A DNA stretch of 64,000 bases from Naumannella cuiyingiana (lineage in GTDB: Bacteria > Actinomycetota > Actinomycetes > Propionibacteriales > Propionibacteriaceae). How positions within the stretch are numbered: position 1 is the first letter of the stretch; each line of letters opens with the position of its first letter. The translations under genes and the position numbers were made by a program. The DNA lies in the NCBI RefSeq assembly GCF_013408305.1, contig NZ_JACBZS010000001.1, forward strand, positions 3,348,001-3,412,000. Direction: 5' to 3'. Shown here piece by piece: positions 45,205 to 54,114 of this stretch. The notes beneath the pieces were generated by a model. It did no database searches. It was not told the DNA's origin and saw only the letters and a list, made by a program, of their open reading frames with translations.

Positions 45205-45233
45205 TTGACACGCTCCAGTGTGCAATCTAGCGT
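45205..45233 (+). promoter_or_regulatory. Consensus promoter of the sugar ABC operon
   Basis: A -35 TTGACA (45205-45210) and a -10 TAGCGT (45228-45233) with a 17-nt spacer, reading toward the ABC operon. Operators flank it on both sides, which fits repression by a bound or looped regulator. It implies a leader of about 70 nt. Confidence 0.65.
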
Positions 45234-45248
45234 CGACACCACGCACGA

Positions 45249-45281
45249 GCACTCATGTGGACATGGGGCGCTCACATGAGC
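45249..45281. promoter_or_regulatory. Operators 2 and 3 downstream of the promoter
   Basis: GCTCACATGAGC (45270-45281) nearly repeats operator 1 with one base changed. GCACTCATGTGG (45249-45260) carries the same CACATGAG core in the opposite direction. The centres of sites 1 and 3 are 89 bp apart, roughly eight and a half helical turns. Confidence 0.5.
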
Positions 45282-45307
45282 AGATCGCAATGAGGCGGGG
45301 AGGCGAC

Positions 45308-46864
45308 GTGGCGCCGGTGCTGTCGGTCCGGGACGTGACCAAGGGGTTCGGCGGCGTGCCGGTCCTGACCGGCGTCGGCCTCGACCTCGAGCCCGGCACC
45401 GTCACGGCACTCGCCGGTGAGAACGGGGCGGGCAAGTCGACCCTGCTGAAGATCGCCTCCGGTCAGTACCGGGCAGACGGCGGGAGCGTCAGCGTCGACG
45501 GGCACGAACTGCACGGCAGCGTCGCCGACGCCCACCGGGCCGGGGTCGCGATCGTCCCGCAGGAGCTTGCCTCGATCCCCGAGCAGTCGGTCTATGAGAA
45601 TCTCTTCGTCGGCCGTGAGCTGCACCGGTTCGGCCTGCTGGACCGGCGGTCGATGATCAAGGCCGCCCGCTCCGCGCTCGCCGACTTCGGCGTCGAGATC
45701 GACGTCACGGCGCCGATGCGCCGGCTGCCGGTCGGCATCCAGCAGATCATCGAGATCGTCAAGGCCACCCACACCGGGGCCCGGGTCCTGCTGCTGGACG
45801 AGCCGACGTCGGCGATCTCCGAGCGAGAGGTCGAGCAGCTCTACCGCGTGGTCCGGCGGCTGCGCTCCCAGGGCGTGGCAATGATCTACACCACCCACAA
45901 GATGGAGGAGATCCGGGCGCTGGCCGACCGGGTCGTGGTACTGCGCGACGGCAGTCTGATCATGGACCAGCCGATCGCGGCCGTCAGTGACGAGGACATC
46001 GTGACCGCCATGATCGGTCGCGAACTCGGCACCCTGTTCCCCGACATCACACCCGCCGGCGAGGATGTCGTGCTCGAGATCGACGGCCTGCACGTCACCG
46101 GCGCCGGCGGGCCGGTGAGCCTTCAGGTGCGACGCGGCGAGATCGTCGGCCTGGCCGGGCTGGTCGGCGCCGGTCGCACCGAGCTGCTGGAGGCGATCTT
46201 CGGGGTACGCCGAAGCGATGCGGGCGTGATCCGGGTGCACGGGAAGACCCTCGCTCGGGGCGCGCCGCGGTCGGCGATCCGGCGCGGCCTGGCGATGGTC
46301 CCCGAGGACCGCAAGGCCTCGGGTGCCGTCCTCGGCATGTCGGTGCTGGACAACGGCAGCCTGCCCCACCTCGCCCGATTCACGCGCGGCGGCGTGCTGC
46401 GGCCGCGGGCGCGGACCCAGGCCGTCCAACAGGCCATGACCTCGGTCCGGCTCCGTTCGCGGGGCCTCGGCCAGGAGGTCGGCACGTTGTCCGGGGGAAA
46501 TCAGCAGAAGGTCGTGTTCGCGCGCTGGCTGACCGGAGAGATCGATGTCTTGCTGCTCGACGAGCCGACCCGCGGTGTCGACGTCGGCGCGCGGTCGGAG
46601 ATCTACCGCATCATCACCGACCTCGCCGCCGGTGGGGTCGCAGTGATCATGGCGTCGTCCGACATGCCCGAGATCCTGGGGCTCGCCCACCGGGCGCTGG
46701 TCCTCGCCGACGGGCAGGTCGCCGGCGAGCTGGATCGGGCGGCGCTCGGTGCCGACGACGCCCAGGCCCGGATCTTCACCCTCGCCACGGGTGATCAGGA
46801 AGCTCCGCCCGCCGCGACCGGGGCGGCGACCGACGACGAGCACGGGAGTGAGGACGTTCGATGA
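45308..46864 (+). CDS. Sugar ABC importer ATPase with two ATP-binding domains (RbsA/MglA-like)
   Basis: A 518-aa double ATPase. Domain 1 has Walker A GENGAGKST, the altered signature LPVGIQQIIEI usual in this family, and Walker B LLLDEPTSAIS. Domain 2 has GLVGAGRTE, signature LSGGNQQKVVFARWL and Walker B LLLDEPTRGVD. The GTG at 45308 has GGGGAGG just upstream and gives the usual VAPVLSVRDVTKGF start; an ATG at 45290 is the alternative. It energises the carbohydrate permease that overlaps downstream. Confidence 0.94.
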   Translation: MAPVLSVRDVTKGFGGVPVLTGVGLDLEPGTVTALAGENGAGKSTLLKIASGQYRADGGSVSVDGHELHGSVADAHRAGVAIVPQELASIPEQSVYENLFVGRELHRFGLLDRRSMIKAARSALADFGVEIDVTAPMRRLPVGIQQIIEIVKATHTGARVLLLDEPTSAISEREVEQLYRVVRRLRSQGVAMIYTTHKMEEIRALADRVVVLRDGSLIMDQPIAAVSDEDIVTAMIGRELGTLFPDITPAGEDVVLEIDGLHVTGAGGPVSLQVRRGEIVGLAGLVGAGRTELLEAIFGVRRSDAGVIRVHGKTLARGAPRSAIRRGLAMVPEDRKASGAVLGMSVLDNGSLPHLARFTRGGVLRPRARTQAVQQAMTSVRLRSRGLGQEVGTLSGGNQQKVVFARWLTGEIDVLLLDEPTRGVDVGARSEIYRIITDLAAGGVAVIMASSDMPEILGLAHRALVLADGQVAGELDRAALGADDAQARIFTLATGDQEAPPAATGAATDDEHGSEDVR

Positions 46865-47886
46865 GCGATTCGACCAGCCAGGTCGCCGGTCCCGACCAGG
46901 TGCCCGACAGCACCGAGCTGGGCGGGGAGGCGCGACGCTTCTCCCGGCAGTGGTGGATCGGGCTGCTGCTGCGCAACGCGATGTTGATCGTGGTGTTGCT
47001 GGTGATCTGCTACTTCAGCTACCGCAGCGCGCGATTCTCCAGCCTCGACAACGTGCAGACGATCCTGATCGCCGCCGCGCCGTTCGCGCTGATCGCGCTG
47101 GGCCAGACCCTGGTCATCCTGACCGGCGGCATCGATCTGTCCGTCGGCAGCGTGATCGCGGTGTCGGCGATGGCCGGCGCCGCCGTTGCCAAGGCGAATC
47201 CGGGACAGGTCTTGTTGACCGTGCTGACGGCTGTCCTGGTCGGGCTGCTCGCGGGTGCGATCAACGGCTTCTTCGTCGCGGTGGTGAACGTGCCACCGTT
47301 CATCGCCACCCTCGGCATGTTGACCGCCGGTTCGGGGGTCGCGTACGCGATCGGTGGCGGCGCCCCGATCAACGGCCTGCCGCCGGAGTTCGGCGCGATC
47401 GCGAACACGACGATCTTCGGGCTGCAGATCCCGGTCCTGGTGATGATCGCCGGGATTCTCGTGCTGGCGTTCGTGATGCGACGGACGTCGTACGGGATGC
47501 GCGTCTACGCCGTGGGCGGGAACCGCAATGCGGCCGAGATCGCCGGCGTGAATGTCCGCGGAATCCTGTTCAGCGTCTACGTGATCTCCGGCGTGCTCGC
47601 CGGCCTGTCCGGGGTGATGCTCGCCTCCCGGGTGATCTCGGGCCCGCCCAATCTGGGCCAGGGCTATGAGCTCGATGCCATTGCCGCGGTCGTGATCGGC
47701 GGTGCCAGCCTGATGGGTGGCCGCGGATCGATCTGGGGCACCGCGCTCGGCCTGATCCTGATCCAGACCCTGAACAACGGCCTCGACATCTTGCTGGTCC
47801 CGGCGTACTGGCAGGACGTGATCAAGGGAGTCCTGATCGTCTTCGCGGTTGCCGTCGATGTCTGGACGGCCAAACGCCGGACCTGA
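46861..47886 (+). CDS. Sugar ABC importer permease (RbsC-like)
   Basis: A 341-aa permease with about nine to ten helices. [20 protein letters not shown] and [17 protein letters not shown], which docks with the ATPase, are the RbsC/CUT2 hallmarks, followed by [21 protein letters not shown]. It overlaps the ATPase gene by ATGA and acts as a homodimeric channel. Confidence 0.95.
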
Positions 47887-47920
47887 CCGTACCCACCACA
47901 CGCCCACCAACGAAGGAGAC

Positions 47921-49015
47921 ATGATGCGACGACGGACCCGACAGATCACCCGTCCACTGGTGGCGGTGATCACCGCCGCGCTGGTGCTGCTGGCCGCGGC
48001 CTGTGGCGCCGGTGACCCCACGCGCAACCAAGGGGGTGAGGGCGGCGAGGGCGGCGACCGGCTGCGGATCGGCGTCACCGTCTACGACATGAGCTCGTTC
48101 ATCACCGCCGGCAAGGAGGGCATGGACGCCTATGCCGCGGCGAACAACATCGAGGTGTTGTGGAACTCGGCGAATCTCGACGTGAGCACCCAGGCCAGCC
48201 AGATGGACCAGTTGATCGCCGCGGGCGTCGACGCGATCGTCGTGGTCCCGGTCCAGGCCGACTCGCTGCAGCCGCAGGTCGCCGCGGCCAATGCGGCCGG
48301 AATCCCGGTGATCCCGGTCAACGCCTCGCTGAACAATCCCGATGTCGCAGGCGACGTCCAACCCGACGACGTGCTCGCGGGGGAGAACGAGATGCAGATG
48401 ATGGCCGACGCGCTCGGCGGGCGCGGCAACATCGTGATCCTGCAGGGCCCGCTCGGGCAGTCGGGCCAGATCAACCGGCAGACCGGTATCGAGAACGTGC
48501 TGGCCGAGAATCCCGACATCAAGGTCCTCGCGCAGGACACCGCCAACTGGAAGCGCGACGAGGCGGTGAACAAGACCAAGAACTGGATCTCGGCCTATGG
48601 CGACCAGATCGACGGAGTCGTCGCCCAGAACGACGACATGGGACTCGGCGCGCTGCAGGCCCTGAAGGAGGCCGGTGCGACCGATACGCCGATCGTCGGC
48701 ATCGACGGCATCGAGGACGGGCTGAAGGCGGTGGAGTCCGGTGAGTTCATCGGCACGATGCTGCAGAACGGCACGGTCGAGCTGTCCGCGGGTCTCGCGG
48801 TCGCCGCGGCGATCGCCCGCGGGGAGCAGATCAACACCAAGCCGGTCTACATCATGCCGCGGATCACGAAGGACAATGTCGGCGTGGCGATGGAACACGT
48901 GGTCACCAACCGACAGGAGTTCCTGTCCCAGATCCCCGAGCTGACCGCGGAGAACCTGAAGACCGGCAACATCGCCTACGAGGGCATCCCCGGCCAGGAA
49001 CCGGGCGGGCAGTGA
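47921..49015 (+). CDS. Sugar-binding lipoprotein (RbsB-like, peripla_BP_4)
   Basis: A 364-aa lipoprotein with lipobox LLAAAC (Cys28). The ligand-binding fold has [51 protein letters not shown] and a hinge region near [29 protein letters not shown] lies just before the ATG. It is the extracellular receptor of the CUT2 importer. The ligand could be a pentose, a polyol or an AI-2-type compound and is not decided by sequence. Confidence 0.94.
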
Positions 49016-49815
49016 GCGCCGGTTCCGGGCTGATCACCGAGATCGCCGCTCCGGCCGACGACATCCGCGTCGACCTCACCGGTCGCAGCGCGGTCGTCAC
49101 GGGCGGGGCCTCGGGGATCGGCGCGGCGATCGCGCAGCGGTTCGCCGACTCGGGTGCCGATCTGGTGATCATGGACGTCGACGAGCGGGCCGCCGAGTCC
49201 GCCGCGGGCGCGATCGGGGAGTCCGGCGGTCGCGCGAGCGCGGTGGCCTGCGATGTGACATCGACCGAATCGGTCACCCGAGCGGTGAGCATCGCCGAGG
49301 AGCGCCTGTCGGGGATCGACATCCTGGTGAACTCCGCGGGCATCGCCCGGCTGGCACCGGCCGAATCCTTGCCGGAGGAGGACTGGGACACCACGATTGC
49401 GGTGAACCTCAGCGGGAGCTACCGGATGTGCCGGGCCGTCGGCACCGGCATGCTGGACCGCGGCCGGGGCGTGATCATCAACCTCGCGTCCCAGGCGGCG
49501 CGGGTGGCGATCGCCGAGCACGTCGCCTACTCGGCCTCGAAGTTCGGAGTGATCGGCCTCACCCGCGTCCTCGCCCTGGAGTGGGCCGGTCGCGGGGTCC
49601 GGGTGAACGCGATCTCGCCGACCGTGGTGCTGACACCGCTCGGGATCGCCGCCTGGGACAACCCCAAGGGGGTCGCCCACCAGGCGCAGATCCCGGTCGG
49701 CCGGTTCGCCGTGCCCGCCGAGATCGCCGCCGCCGCGGCGTTCCTGGCCAGCGACGCGGCCGCGATGATCAACGGTGCCGATCTGGTGATCGACGGGGGA
49801 TTCACGATCTGGTGA
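49012..49815 (+). CDS. Short-chain dehydrogenase/reductase, probably for a sugar alcohol
   Basis: A 267-aa classical SDR. The nucleotide site is [17 protein letters not shown], with an Asp in VIMDVDERA that favours NAD over NADP. The catalytic Ser region is [11 protein letters not shown] and the motif [10 protein letters not shown] carries Tyr and Lys. The GTG start overlaps the binding-protein stop, so it is the last gene of the SorC-regulated operon. By context it oxidises the imported sugar or polyol (D-threitol- or sorbitol-type dehydrogenases are relatives). No kinase is present. Its 3' end overlaps the convergent ligase gene by 14 bp. Confidence 0.92.
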
Positions 49816-50902: not shown

Positions 50903-50947
50903 ATGGTAGTTCGCACAGGTACGCCGAACCGCCGCGTGCGGCAGGAT
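50903..50947. promoter_or_regulatory. Back-to-back leaderless promoters for ligC-like and ppk2-like genes
   Basis: The 57-bp divergent gap holds TACCAT (minus strand, 50908-50903) 6 nt before the ligase GTG and CAGGAT (plus, 50942-50947) 6 nt before the PPK2 ATG. Two leaderless promoters facing outward would share the region in between. Confidence 0.5.
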
Positions 50948-50953
50948 GACGCC

Positions 50954-51805
50954 ATGACGACTCCGATCTCCGACCTCCTGCGGTTGCCGGCCGGGCCGGT
51001 CGACCTGTCCGCGCTCGACCCCCGCGCCACCCACGGGTTCCCCGGCAAGGACAAGTCGGACCAGCCGAAGCTGATGGCCGAGCTGGCGCCCGTGCTGGAC
51101 GATCGCCAGGAGCGCCTCTTCGCCGCCGGCCGGGCCGATCCGGAGAGCGCGCCGCGGGTGTTGATGATCCTGCAGGGCATGGACACCTCCGGTAAGGGCG
51201 GCGTGATCCGGCACGCGGTCGGGCTGATGGACCCCCAGGGCGTCCGGATCACCGGCTTCAAGGCGCCCACCGAGGAGGAGCGGTCCCACGACTTCTTGTG
51301 GCGGATCGAGCGTGCGCTCCCGTCGCCCGGCCAGGTCGGGATCTTCGACCGCTCCCAGTACGAGGACGTGCTGGTGGTCCGGGTCGAGCAGCTCGTGGAC
51401 GAGGCCGAATGGCGCTCGCGCTATGACCGGATCAACGAGTTCGAGGCCCGGTTGGCCGAGCAGGGCACCTTGATCATCAAGTGCTTCCTGAACGTGTCCT
51501 ATGCCAAGCAGGGTGAGCGCCTGATGGAGCGGCTGGACAACCCGGACAAGTACTGGAAGTACAACCCGGGCGACCTGGTCGCCCGCTCCCGCTGGGCGGA
51601 CTACCAGGCGGCCTATGCCGACGCGTTGGCCAACTGCAACACCGAGGTCGCGCCCTGGTACGTCATCCCGGCCGATCGCAAGTGGTACCGCAACTGGGCG
51701 GCCGCCCAGTTGCTCGCCGAGCAGTTGGAGCGGCTGAACCTCGGCTGGCCGCCCGCCGATTTCGACGTGGCCGAGCAGAAGAGGCTGCTCGCGGCGACCA
51801 TGTGA
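50954..51805 (+). CDS. Polyphosphate kinase 2 family protein
   Basis: A 283-aa PPK2. Walker A is LQGMDTSGKGGVIRH (Lys81). The lid and Walker B region is VGIFDRSQYEDVLVVRVE, and the conserved CFLNVSYAKQGERLMERLDNPDKYWKYNPGD block and APWYVIPADRKWYRNW ending are intact. It transfers phosphate between polyphosphate and nucleotides (ADP, GDP or AMP, depending on class; class not decided here). The ATG follows CAGGAT by 6 nt. Propionibacteria and relatives use polyphosphate heavily. Confidence 0.95.
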   Translation: MTTPISDLLRLPAGPVDLSALDPRATHGFPGKDKSDQPKLMAELAPVLDDRQERLFAAGRADPESAPRVLMILQGMDTSGKGGVIRHAVGLMDPQGVRITGFKAPTEEERSHDFLWRIERALPSPGQVGIFDRSQYEDVLVVRVEQLVDEAEWRSRYDRINEFEARLAEQGTLIIKCFLNVSYAKQGERLMERLDNPDKYWKYNPGDLVARSRWADYQAAYADALANCNTEVAPWYVIPADRKWYRNWAAAQLLAEQLERLNLGWPPADFDVAEQKRLLAATM

Positions 51806-51827: not shown

Positions 51828-52625
51828 TCAGGCACCGACCACGCTGAGCGACGGGCGCGCGGGCTCCGCGGTCTCGTCGAAACCGAAGTCGACCAGTTCC
51901 ATCGCCGCCACGGCGTAGCGGGCCAGCGCCAGATCAAGGACGGTCTCGTCGGCCCCGAGCGGATCGCCGACCGCGACGACGCCGGCCGACCGCGCTTGCT
52001 CGGCCCGTTCCACCCAGTGCGCATCGGCGGTCAGGCAGAGCGAGCCGACGGCCACGTTGCGCCGCCCCTGGGCGTACAGCGAGTGCAGCGCCTCCGCCAT
52101 CGCGCCGGCGCCGGCATCGGTGAAGACGGGTACGCAGGGCAGCTTGTGGTGCTGGCCCCACTGCCGGGCGCGGCGGGCGACGAGCGCCGCTCCGCGGGAA
52201 TCGGGGGTGCCCTCGGCCAGCAGCACCAGGCCGTCGAGCTCGGTGGCCCGGGCCCGGCGCAGCGCCTGCCGCAGTTGCGCGTCGACCCGGGACAACAGGC
52301 TCGCCTCCGGGCCGATCGACCCCGCGACCGCGGTGCGGATCTCCGGGTGCGTGGCGCGGGTGCGGCGTACCAGCGTCGCGACGCGCTCGTCGGTGGCGAA
52401 CGGGCTGGACAGCAGTGCGGGAACGAAGGCGATCTCGCGCACGCCGGCGCGGGCCAGGTGGCTGACCACCTGCGGTCCGGTCGGCGGACAGTGATCGAGG
52501 AACGCAGCGCGGACGTCGAGTTCGGGACGCATCGCCTGCAGCCCGACGCGCATGGCGTGGGCTACCTGGTTGACCTGAGAATCAGAGCTGCCGGCGGCCA
52601 GGACGACGAGAGTCGGTGCGTTCAT
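51828..52625 (-). CDS. CbiX/sirohydrochlorin chelatase-like protein lacking the catalytic histidines
   Basis: A 265-aa protein with two CbiX-like alpha/beta halves: PTLVVLAAGSSDSQVNQVAHAMRVGLQ with IAFVPALLSSPFATDERVATLV, then DGLVLLAEGTPDSRGAALVARRARQW with VAVGSLCLTADAHWVERAE. In active chelatases the first strand reads AHGSR, with a metal-binding His, and a second His follows the LSPG-type segment. Here these are Ala-Ala-Gly-Ser and Ser-Ser-Pro-Phe. It is therefore probably not a normal chelatase. An AT-rich dyad lies in front of its -10-like TACTTT. Role unknown. Confidence 0.8.
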   Translation of the reverse strand: MNAPTLVVLAAGSSDSQVNQVAHAMRVGLQAMRPELDVRAAFLDHCPPTGPQVVSHLARAGVREIAFVPALLSSPFATDERVATLVRRTRATHPEIRTAVAGSIGPEASLLSRVDAQLRQALRRARATELDGLVLLAEGTPDSRGAALVARRARQWGQHHKLPCVPVFTDAGAGAMAEALHSLYAQGRRNVAVGSLCLTADAHWVERAEQARSAGVVAVGDPLGADETVLDLALARYAVAAMELVDFGFDETAEPARPSLSVVGA

Positions 52626-52671
52626 GCGGACACTCTCGCGGCTCGGACACGCGTCCACAAGCTGAGATACC

Positions 52672-52692
52672 AAAGTATGAGATTGAATCTCA
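52672..52692 (-). promoter_or_regulatory. AT-rich operator dyad upstream of the CbiX-like gene
   Basis: TGAGATT-G-AATCTCA (52678-52692) has perfect 7-bp arms and directly abuts a minus-strand -10-like TACTTT (52677-52672). The local base composition is far more AT-rich than elsewhere in the window. The shape suits a Fur/Zur- or other metal-type repressor, but it matches no consensus I can name. Confidence 0.5.
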
Positions 52693-52824
52693 CATATTGA
52701 GCATCGACCTCGTGGCCTCGGGTCACGGCTGGGCGACATATCGCGCCGGCGTCTCGTCAATCGTGGCCGGATCGGCAAAACTGTGCGCGGCAGTGTGGCT
52801 CCCCCAATGCGGAAGGACGACGCG

Positions 52825-54114
52825 ATGCGACGAGGACTGATCAGGACGGCGGCCGGGCTAGGCGCGGCGCTGGTGCTGGCGGCGACCGCGGCCTGTGCGC
52901 CCGGCGGCGCCGGGGGCGAGGCGGAGCAGACGGGCGACCAGACGCTGACCTACCTGTACTTCACCGACGGTCCGGACGAGCAGGCGACGCGCGACCTGAT
53001 CGCCCGCTTCGAGCAGGAGACGGGGGCCACGGTGAACCTCGAACTGATCCCGTACGCCAATCTGGAGCAGACGCTGCAGGCCAGGCTCTCCGGTGGTAAT
53101 CCCCCCGACGTTGCCCGCCTGACCACGCTCACCCCGGTCCGCGACGACCTGGTCGATCTGACCGCGCTGCGACCGGAGCTCGCGGGGCAGTACCTCGACG
53201 GCATGGCCGGACCGGCCACCGGGCCGGGCGGCGAGCTGCTCGCGGTGCCCAGCGACCTGACGCTGAACGGGCCGATGATCAATCTCGACCTGTTCGAGAA
53301 GGCCGGCGTCGAGCCACCGACGGCGCAGCGGCCGTGGCGGTCGTGGGACGAGGTCGTCGAGGCGGCCGAGCAGGTGAAGAAGGGCGCCGGCACCGAGTTC
53401 GGTCTGGCCATGGACGTGTCGGGTCACCGGTTCTCCACGATGATGAGCCAGTACGGGACGACCGTCTTCGACGAATCGGGTACGCAGGTCGCGCTCGCCG
53501 AGGAGCCGGCCGTCGCCGCCGTGACCAGGTTCGCCGAGCTGAATGCCGACGGCGTGATGCCGCGCGACCTGTGGTTGCAGGCCGGTACGCGCTACACCGC
53601 GGCGAACGAGATCTTCCTCGCCCAGCAGGCGCCGATCTATGTTTCGGGCAACTGGCAGGTCGCGGCCTTCGCCGAGTCCGCTGAGTTCGACTGGGCGGCG
53701 GTGCCGAACCCCTGCCAGGAGCGCTGCGGCGGATTCCCGGGCGGCAAGTTCATGGGCGCGTTCAAGGCCAGCCCGCGCCAGCAGCTCGCCGCCGACTTCA
53801 TCGCCTTCATGAACTCCGCCGACTCCCAGCGCTATCTGGCGGACAAGGCCAACTTCCTGCCGACCCGCAAGGACCTGATCGAGTCCGGGGTGGAATACAG
53901 CAACCGCGATGCCGACATGCAGGTCTTCCTCGCCGATGTCCAGCAGACCCCGCCCGACACCTTCGGCACGTCGTTCTCGCCCGCCTTCAGCGCCACCAGC
54001 ACCGAGATGACCAAGGTGCTCGCCGCCGTGTTGGCGGGGCAGCAGGATCCGGCCCAGGCCGTGGCCGCCTTCCGCAAGGGCGCGGAGAAGTCGCTGCAGG
54101 ACGCGGCCGGGTGA
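52825..54114 (+). CDS. Sugar-binding lipoprotein (SBP_bac_1 family)
   Basis: A 429-aa lipoprotein, lipobox ATAAC (Cys24). Family 1 features are TLTYLYFTDGPDEQATRDLIARFEQETG, LSGGNPPDVARL, MINLDLFEKAGVEPP and FLPTRKDLIES. It binds a sugar or oligosaccharide outside the membrane. The ATG at 52825 is preceded by GGAAGGA; an earlier in-frame ATG at 52807 precedes that site and is less likely. It leads a three-gene operon with two permeases and no ATPase. Confidence 0.93.
   Translation: MRRGLIRTAAGLGAALVLAATAACAPGGAGGEAEQTGDQTLTYLYFTDGPDEQATRDLIARFEQETGATVNLELIPYANLEQTLQARLSGGNPPDVARLTTLTPVRDDLVDLTALRPELAGQYLDGMAGPATGPGGELLAVPSDLTLNGPMINLDLFEKAGVEPPTAQRPWRSWDEVVEAAEQVKKGAGTEFGLAMDVSGHRFSTMMSQYGTTVFDESGTQVALAEEPAVAAVTRFAELNADGVMPRDLWLQAGTRYTAANEIFLAQQAPIYVSGNWQVAAFAESAEFDWAAVPNPCQERCGGFPGGKFMGAFKASPRQQLAADFIAFMNSADSQRYLADKANFLPTRKDLIESGVEYSNRDADMQVFLADVQQTPPDTFGTSFSPAFSATSTEMTKVLAAVLAGQQDPAQAVAAFRKGAEKSLQDAAG

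Follow-up and report, generated by a model that had tools for sequence, protein, structure and literature searches.

Within the window, the whole 64-kb stretch of DNA analysed (G000:C1:3348001-3412000, in the 3.5-Mb genome G000), a minus-strand open reading frame at 51828-52625 runs from an ATG at 52625 to a TGA stop at 51828-51830 and encodes a protein of 265 aa. It is convergent with a gene for a PPK2-family polyphosphate kinase (50945-51805), a homologue of which is present in 28 of the 44 neighbourhood loci compared and often adjoins the chelatase-like orthologue, and divergent from a gene for a solute-binding protein; at 45218-49815 the list of open reading frames suggests genes like those of a sugar ABC transporter and, after them, a frame resembling short-chain dehydrogenases. 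A second CbiX is encoded elsewhere in the same genome, closing a reductase gene cluster behind sulfite reductase, with both histidines present in its motifs AHGSPDPR and LTRAHHARTDVP (AHG, RAHHAR). We refer to the window's own family, Propionibacteriaceae, as f1, to three other families of the same order as f2, f3 and f4, and to the sister species in the window's genus as G001; the named protein relatives come nearly all from Propionibacteriaceae metagenome-assembled genomes. The parts of the coding region are:

51828..52625, minus strand: SirB/CbiX-fold protein without the metal-binding histidines (open reading frame, profile, fold model, structure search)
52251..52625, minus strand: N-terminal half (residues 1-125), which in SirB is the catalytic one
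51888..52250, minus strand: C-terminal half, residues 126-246 (conserved columns)
52593..52595, minus strand: Ala11 codon, at the place of SirB His10 (alignment)
52494..52496, minus strand: Asp44 codon, at the place of SirB Glu43 (alignment)
52395..52397, minus strand: Ala77 codon, at the place of SirB His76 (alignment)

A profile search of the 265-aa protein matched CbiX (PF01903) in two stretches, at 68.6 bits against a cut-off of 22, bearing out a preliminary description that had recognized the chelatase fold signature in both halves from the letters alone. An AlphaFold model with 13 input sequences (pLDDT 88.2, pTM 0.83) predicts a two-domain chelatase fold, and a structure search with this model returned SirB, the sirohydrochlorin ferrochelatase of Bacillus subtilis (PDB 5zt7, 6jv6), as the top solved-structure match (Z 22.1, 2.6 Å, 224 residues); the two-domain class II chelatase fold is common to both over residues 2-246, but identity is 19% and SirB His10 and His76 are Ala11 and Ala77 in the window protein. 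Further matches were CbiK (Z 19.7) and ferrochelatase (Z 19.3). The chelatase fold is also that of FetB from Porphyromonas gingivalis, which we take to be a non-enzymatic haem-binding protein. FetB (PDB 9b86, whose title includes 'without heme group') matched with Z 19.2 at 14% identity, a likeness to the window protein's predicted structure that is one of fold only. No other catalytic family matched in the profile and structure searches, and the cut-off of the CfbA nickelochelatase profile NF033198 was missed (33.6 bits against 120).

In SirB the metal ligands are His10, Glu43 and His76, all in the N-terminal half, according to the available part of PMC11301274. Aligned with orthologues that keep both histidines, the window protein has Ala11, within LAAGSS, and Ala77, within SSPFA, at the two histidine places, as the preliminary description had read them; the N-half metal histidine pair of SirB/CbiX chelatases is absent, with no histidine near position 11 or 77. 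An acidic residue is kept at the Glu43 place, as Asp44, and the two-histidine orthologues have Asp there in 6/6 f2 and 4/8 f3 sequences (10 Asp and 4 Glu among the 14). Because the essential histidines of Paracoccus CbiX sit in the C-terminal half, according to the available part of PMC4063343, that half was also checked for a pair: in a half-against-half comparison the equivalent places in the window protein hold Glu138 and Ala202, His203 is found in 1 of 138 f1 orthologues, and a C-half pair, with nearby columns allowed, likewise in 1 of 138.

The loss is spread throughout the family. From the 142 f1 genomes with a match, 138 orthologues entered the alignment, with the partial G068, the contig-split G150 and the weak fragments G085 and G151 omitted; it also took in six orthologues from eight f2 genomes and eight of eight from both f3 and f4. 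H11 is present in 30 of the f1 orthologues, H77 in 5 and both in one (G002); both histidines are kept in all 6 f2, all 8 f3 and all 8 f4 sequences. On a looser count, 15/138 f1 orthologues have H11 with any histidine at 74-81, and 42/138 have neither. Histidines close to the old site, which the preliminary description had named as evidence against its reading, are thus found in these 15 orthologues, mostly of the genus g21, and not in the window protein. The g21 orthologues (for example L063, L202 and L206) keep H11 and carry a histidine shifted by one (AVTDHD), possibly a rebuilt metal site; siroheme reductase was not found in the g21 genomes G021 and G066.

The two halves differ in conservation, with 14 columns at or above 90% across the 138 f1 orthologues in residues 1-125 and 30 in residues 126-246, and mean pairwise identities of 0.40 and 0.54, respectively. 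Because f3 has the same kind of gap (0.68 and 0.82), this difference does not come wholly from the loss of the histidines. The C-half columns at 90% or more include E129, D131, D142, R144, R151, R154, W156, H159, H160, G187-R188-R189, R236 and Y237. Of the columns fixed in f2/f3, f1 has lost 13 in residues 1-125 and 23 beyond residue 125, among them loops that face the cleft, by position in SirB-type enzymes (11, 14, 17, 71, 77, 81 and 83, and in the C-half 136-139, 145-146 and 199-206). Kept from f2/f3 into f1 are E64, D115, R119, E129, D131, R151, R154, W156, H160, R188, R189, R236 and Y237, with R151, R154, W156, H160, R188 and Y237 unlike the f4 residue; novelties of f1 are R144, P103, P106 and L183. 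R144 is found in 99% of f1 orthologues against 0/15 f2/f3 comparison sequences, and H159 in 135/138 against 5/15. To judge from these alignments, the family has let the tetrapyrrole cleft erode and has kept a number of C-half residues almost unchanged; these residues could simply hold the fold, most of them being common to the catalytic-type f2/f3 proteins.

The gene is retained in 142 of 147 f1 genomes (115 of the 116 of high quality), and a sulfite/nitrite reductase domain (NIR_SIR) is found in 76 of the 147 (61/116). Since two of the five gene-less genomes (G101 and G113) belong to the 76 reductase holders, 68 of the 71 f1 genomes without the reductase have at least a match to the gene, at least one of which may be a weak fragment. 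By Nei-Gojobori counts, each of the 23 pairs compared has dN/dS below 1 in the N-half and the C-half alike, and the gene is under purifying selection. The C-half value is below that of the N-half in 16 of the 23 pairs only, and in the window's own pair, G000/G001 (N 0.27, C 0.36), the C-half is not the better conserved. The feature is real and conserved, an ordinary fold with an unusual fate.

Upstream of the ATG lie the following elements, the promoter boxes being proposed from their position and from relatives:

52688..52702, minus strand: operator 1, GCTCAATATGTGAGA (motif discovery, matrix scan)
52668..52682, minus strand: operator 2, TCTCATACTTTGGTA, 20 bp downstream of operator 1 (motif discovery, matrix scan)
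52678..52692, no strand: dyad of the preliminary description, formed by the adjoining inner half-sites of the two operators (genome search, matrix scan)
52653..52667, minus strand: a third site, operator-like but weaker, TCTCAGCTTGTGGAC, which overlaps the proposed -35 and is also present in G001 (matrix scan)
52655..52660, minus strand: proposed -35, TTGTGG, at the place of the relatives' conserved TTGC
52632..52637, minus strand: proposed -10, GAGAGT, separated by 17 bp from the -35 and by 6 nt from the ATG

The operator unit is a 15-bp palindrome, TCTCAn5TGAGA, present twice with centres 20 bp apart, both copies ahead of the proposed -35. A prior-free expectation-maximisation search of 33 upstream regions yielded gTCTCAnattnTGAna, often twice at 20-bp spacing. 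Scored with a matrix made without the window's genus, the pair reaches 35.9, against 17.0 at the next place in the window outside this region and a maximum of 14.7 over 30 shuffled windows; with such a matrix, the three operator sites are also the three best single sites of the entire window. The dyad singled out in the preliminary description, TGAGATT-G-AATCTCA, is AT-rich as claimed (10/15 bases A/T), yet it does not abut the -10, being half of each of two palindromes that both lie upstream of the proposed -35. Nor does it recur: elsewhere in the genome every match has three mismatches or more, and the exact dyad was ruled out as the operator, its own place being the only one and the rest 3-mismatch sites. 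Zur, CRP and LexA boxes, considered as candidates, were set aside once the de novo motif was found. A consensus sigma-70 scan of 52500-52900 found no promoter. The proposed -10 leaves only 6 nt to the ATG, which makes a leaderless transcript probable. Activators usually bind upstream of the -35, as these sites lie, which may hint at the direction of regulation, and the geometry, the two sites lying some 50 and 70 bp ahead of the presumed start, would suit a LysR-type regulator.

Among relatives, the twin operator keeps the company of sulfur genes. A 20-bp operator pair at p<=0.01 lies upstream of 71 of the 138 f1 genes, and in the 87 best pairs scoring >12 the spacing is 20 in 51, 21 in 13 and 19 in 6; the 67 upstream regions without a significant 20-bp twin operator include those of g4, g13, most g34 and the in-operon g18 genes. 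A pair model, R1, built from 21 rows (G000 and G001 among them) and searched in 30 genomes, matched this gene in f1 and the region before the reductase in f2. Upstream of the reductase, 0/200 shuffles were as good in each of 6/6 f2, 7/7 f3 and 10/14 g18 cases and at the acquired copy of G167; the g18 scan gave none in G148, G153 and G137 and a weak pair in G130 (p 0.005). No pair precedes the reductase in the stand-alone-gene f1 genomes G000, G001, G005, G014 and G009 (p 0.165-0.65) or in 11 of 12 further genomes of that kind (p 0.165-0.905), and marginal pairs precede it in G028 (p 0.045) and G079 (p 0.015); three f4 loci gave p 0.04-0.07. Other R1 sites adjoin cysteine synthase genes (cysK; G004, G027, G086 and G076), genes for an SsuA-family sulfonate-binding protein (G042 and G039), rhodanese/sulfurtransferase genes (G036 and G042) and a thioredoxin-like gene (G100), families having been confirmed for the neighbours L162, L325, L149, L164, L154 and L321 and the rest named by eye. 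Judged to be chance or unexplained were R1 matches by ilvE/citramalate-type genes (L163 and L326; two genomes), between hom and lysA (L156), by a polar amino-acid binding protein, possibly for cystine (L147), and at L152, L153, L157, L158, L159, L322 and L329; gene names at these misfit matches were given by eye, except at L147.

That the gene is regulated, as the preliminary description supposed, is thus borne out by the twin operator, and the regulon, sulfur/cysteine, can be named from the reductase, cysteine synthase, sulfonate-transporter and sulfurtransferase genes of relatives. The window gene carries the twin operator of a sulfur/cysteine regulon of Propionibacteriales, a regulon defined here by the operator. 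In the window genome the chelatase-like gene is the only twin-operator site found, with none at its own reductase gene, and for this reason the sulfur link there rests on relatives. A literature search on sulfur regulators and leader peptides returned nothing on this operator among the matches listed.

The operons of relatives also indicate what followed the operator. In 24 reductase operons, chosen for having the twin operator, operator 2 is followed at 42-44 nt by the start of an open reading frame whose product closes with a motif of the type HVDLGRTxSMMCR. Of five leader peptides typed, four match NCBIfam NF042934 or NF042936 with scores that stay short of the curated cut-offs (at best 25.9 for a cut-off of 27, and 29 for one of 45); the fifth had no NCBIfam leader match, nor did a candidate peptide from the upstream region of one stand-alone f1 gene. 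Cysteine control of the reductase operon is supported by this resemblance. These leader frames of f2, f3 and g18 thus resemble actinobacterial Cys leader peptides such as the mycobacterial attenuators of the Ms4527A type, leaderless frames that attenuate at Cys codons (Canestrari et al. 2020, cited in the available part of PMC9031893). Unlike them, the window gene has no leader peptide and has its own ATG in that place, 42 nt after operator 2, a spacing that suggests a direct fusion of the gene to the operon's promoter and translation of a leaderless transcript. At L074, L083, L209, L305 and other reductase operons the twin operator is followed by a probably leaderless, Cys-containing leader, and sulfite reductase in this order may be under double control.

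Phylogeny points to the same operon. In a tree of 62 rows, 39 of them f1, the f1 orthologues form one group (100/100), with g18 sister to the remaining f1; f2 and f3 fall together (96/83), and f1, f2 and f3 stand apart from f4 and other paralogues (100/99). The f2/f3 orthologue follows the sulfite-reductase gene cluster, in which the names cysH, cysD and cysN are our own reading of the sequences. This SirB/CbiX-type operon protein is an orthologue by the tree and shares 40-44% identity, many C-half residues and the operator type with the window protein; it has both histidines and a place in the operon, whereas the window gene stands alone with both histidines gone. In g18 genomes the gene is still about 3-5 kb from the reductase, with one or both histidines already gone. 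One g18 genome, G167, has beside its degenerate in-operon copy a second, f3-like copy with both histidines that adjoins another reductase (L304, G167:C83:13700-18500). The ancestor would have been sirB, a sirohydrochlorin ferrochelatase gene closing the sulfite-reductase operon of the order's ancestor; this operon would have fallen apart in Propionibacteriaceae, its last gene retaining the twin operator and promoter while the chelatase site decayed. The window gene thus appears to be a relict of a sulfur operon on its old promoter, descended by operon collapse.

We propose that the protein is a pseudoenzyme of the cysteine/sulfur regulon, descended from sirB through operon break-up, with chelation lost and with action through a conserved C-half face, and we put the probability of this reading at about one half. 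The TCTCAn5TGAGA pair ahead of the -35 would be bound by a regulator, and expression would follow sulfur supply; the protein would act without metal insertion, its C-half face most likely serving to bind a partner protein from cysteine, Fe-S or tetrapyrrole metabolism, which is the least certain step. Partner binding through the C-half is suggested because the gene is kept without siroheme enzymes and because the cleft was lost while the C-terminal set stayed. The protein has probably been given a second job in sulfur metabolism. More tentatively, at somewhat less than even odds, chelatases of this order already carried a second, non-catalytic C-half function before activity was lost, and this function alone keeps the Propionibacteriaceae gene, as a dedicated cysteine-starvation protein, even without siroheme enzymes.

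The preliminary description had foreseen a non-catalytic chelatase-fold protein, and this part of it stands: both histidines are gone here and nearly family-wide, with no substitute pair in the C-half. It fared less well in suggesting a metal or tetrapyrrole carrier or sensor, in which the empty cleft would still bind a metal ion or a tetrapyrrole (sirohydrochlorin, siroheme or haem) but catalyse nothing. The predicted chelatase fold (pLDDT 88), shared with FetB, and the presence of Asp44, His45 and Cys46 beside the old site would suit such a role, but the cleft loops of both halves are among the positions lost in f1, His45 is kept in 47/138 and Cys46 in 70/138 orthologues, and about half of the gene-keeping genomes are without siroheme reductase, for which reasons we consider it rather unlikely. 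That the C-half might instead house the active site of a new enzyme, around the D142-x-R144 loop with R151, R154, H159, H160, R188 and R189, is suggested by its many nearly invariant charged residues and by R144 and H159, so much commoner in f1 than in f2/f3; we hold this to be improbable, most of these residues being present already in catalytic-type f2/f3 proteins and no other catalytic family having matched.

It is very unlikely that the protein still works as a chelatase with other ligands: the 15 orthologues with H11 and a histidine at 74-81, and the essential histidines in the other half of Paracoccus CbiX, as described in the available part of PMC4063343, give this idea some footing, but the window protein offers no histidine near either N-half place and Glu138 and Ala202 in the C-half, His203 is confined to a single f1 orthologue, and the same genome has another CbiX with both histidines. 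A decaying relict without function, as the lost active site, the lost operon and the variable N-half might suggest, has the slimmest chance of all and is already disfavoured by retention in 142/147 genomes, dN/dS below 1 throughout the 23 pairs, the 30 C-half columns at 90% or more and an operator kept in about half of the orthologues.

On the pseudoenzyme reading, homology gives these proteins as sirohydrochlorin chelatases, probably wrongly in most of the family, an error that would inflate reconstructions of siroheme and cobalamin synthesis; in Propionibacter-related literature, the available part of PMC5644110 concerns a cbiX of the B12 cluster. A literature search on chelatase pseudoenzymes gave no match, and in this and the other literature searches named here we found no printed description. 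The case offers a graded natural series, from the two-histidine operon protein, through in-operon forms with one or both histidines lost, to the stand-alone pseudoenzyme under the same operator; such a series allows a second function of a tetrapyrrole enzyme to be put to a direct test, and the twin operator is a usable marker for a putative cysteine regulator of Propionibacteriales.

An Rfam search at eight loci assigned no family to a further element of f1 leaders, its matches being tRNAs and chance-type models. This element, a hairpin-like GGCWWnGGnGCC, occurs in the last 70 nt of 47 of 138 f1 upstream regions, against 2 of 6900 shuffled controls, and is absent from the window; it could be a second, RNA-level control. 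In L066, L068 and L063, among others, this element, there in the form CGGCAAYGGnGCCG, lies 37-55 nt before the ATG.
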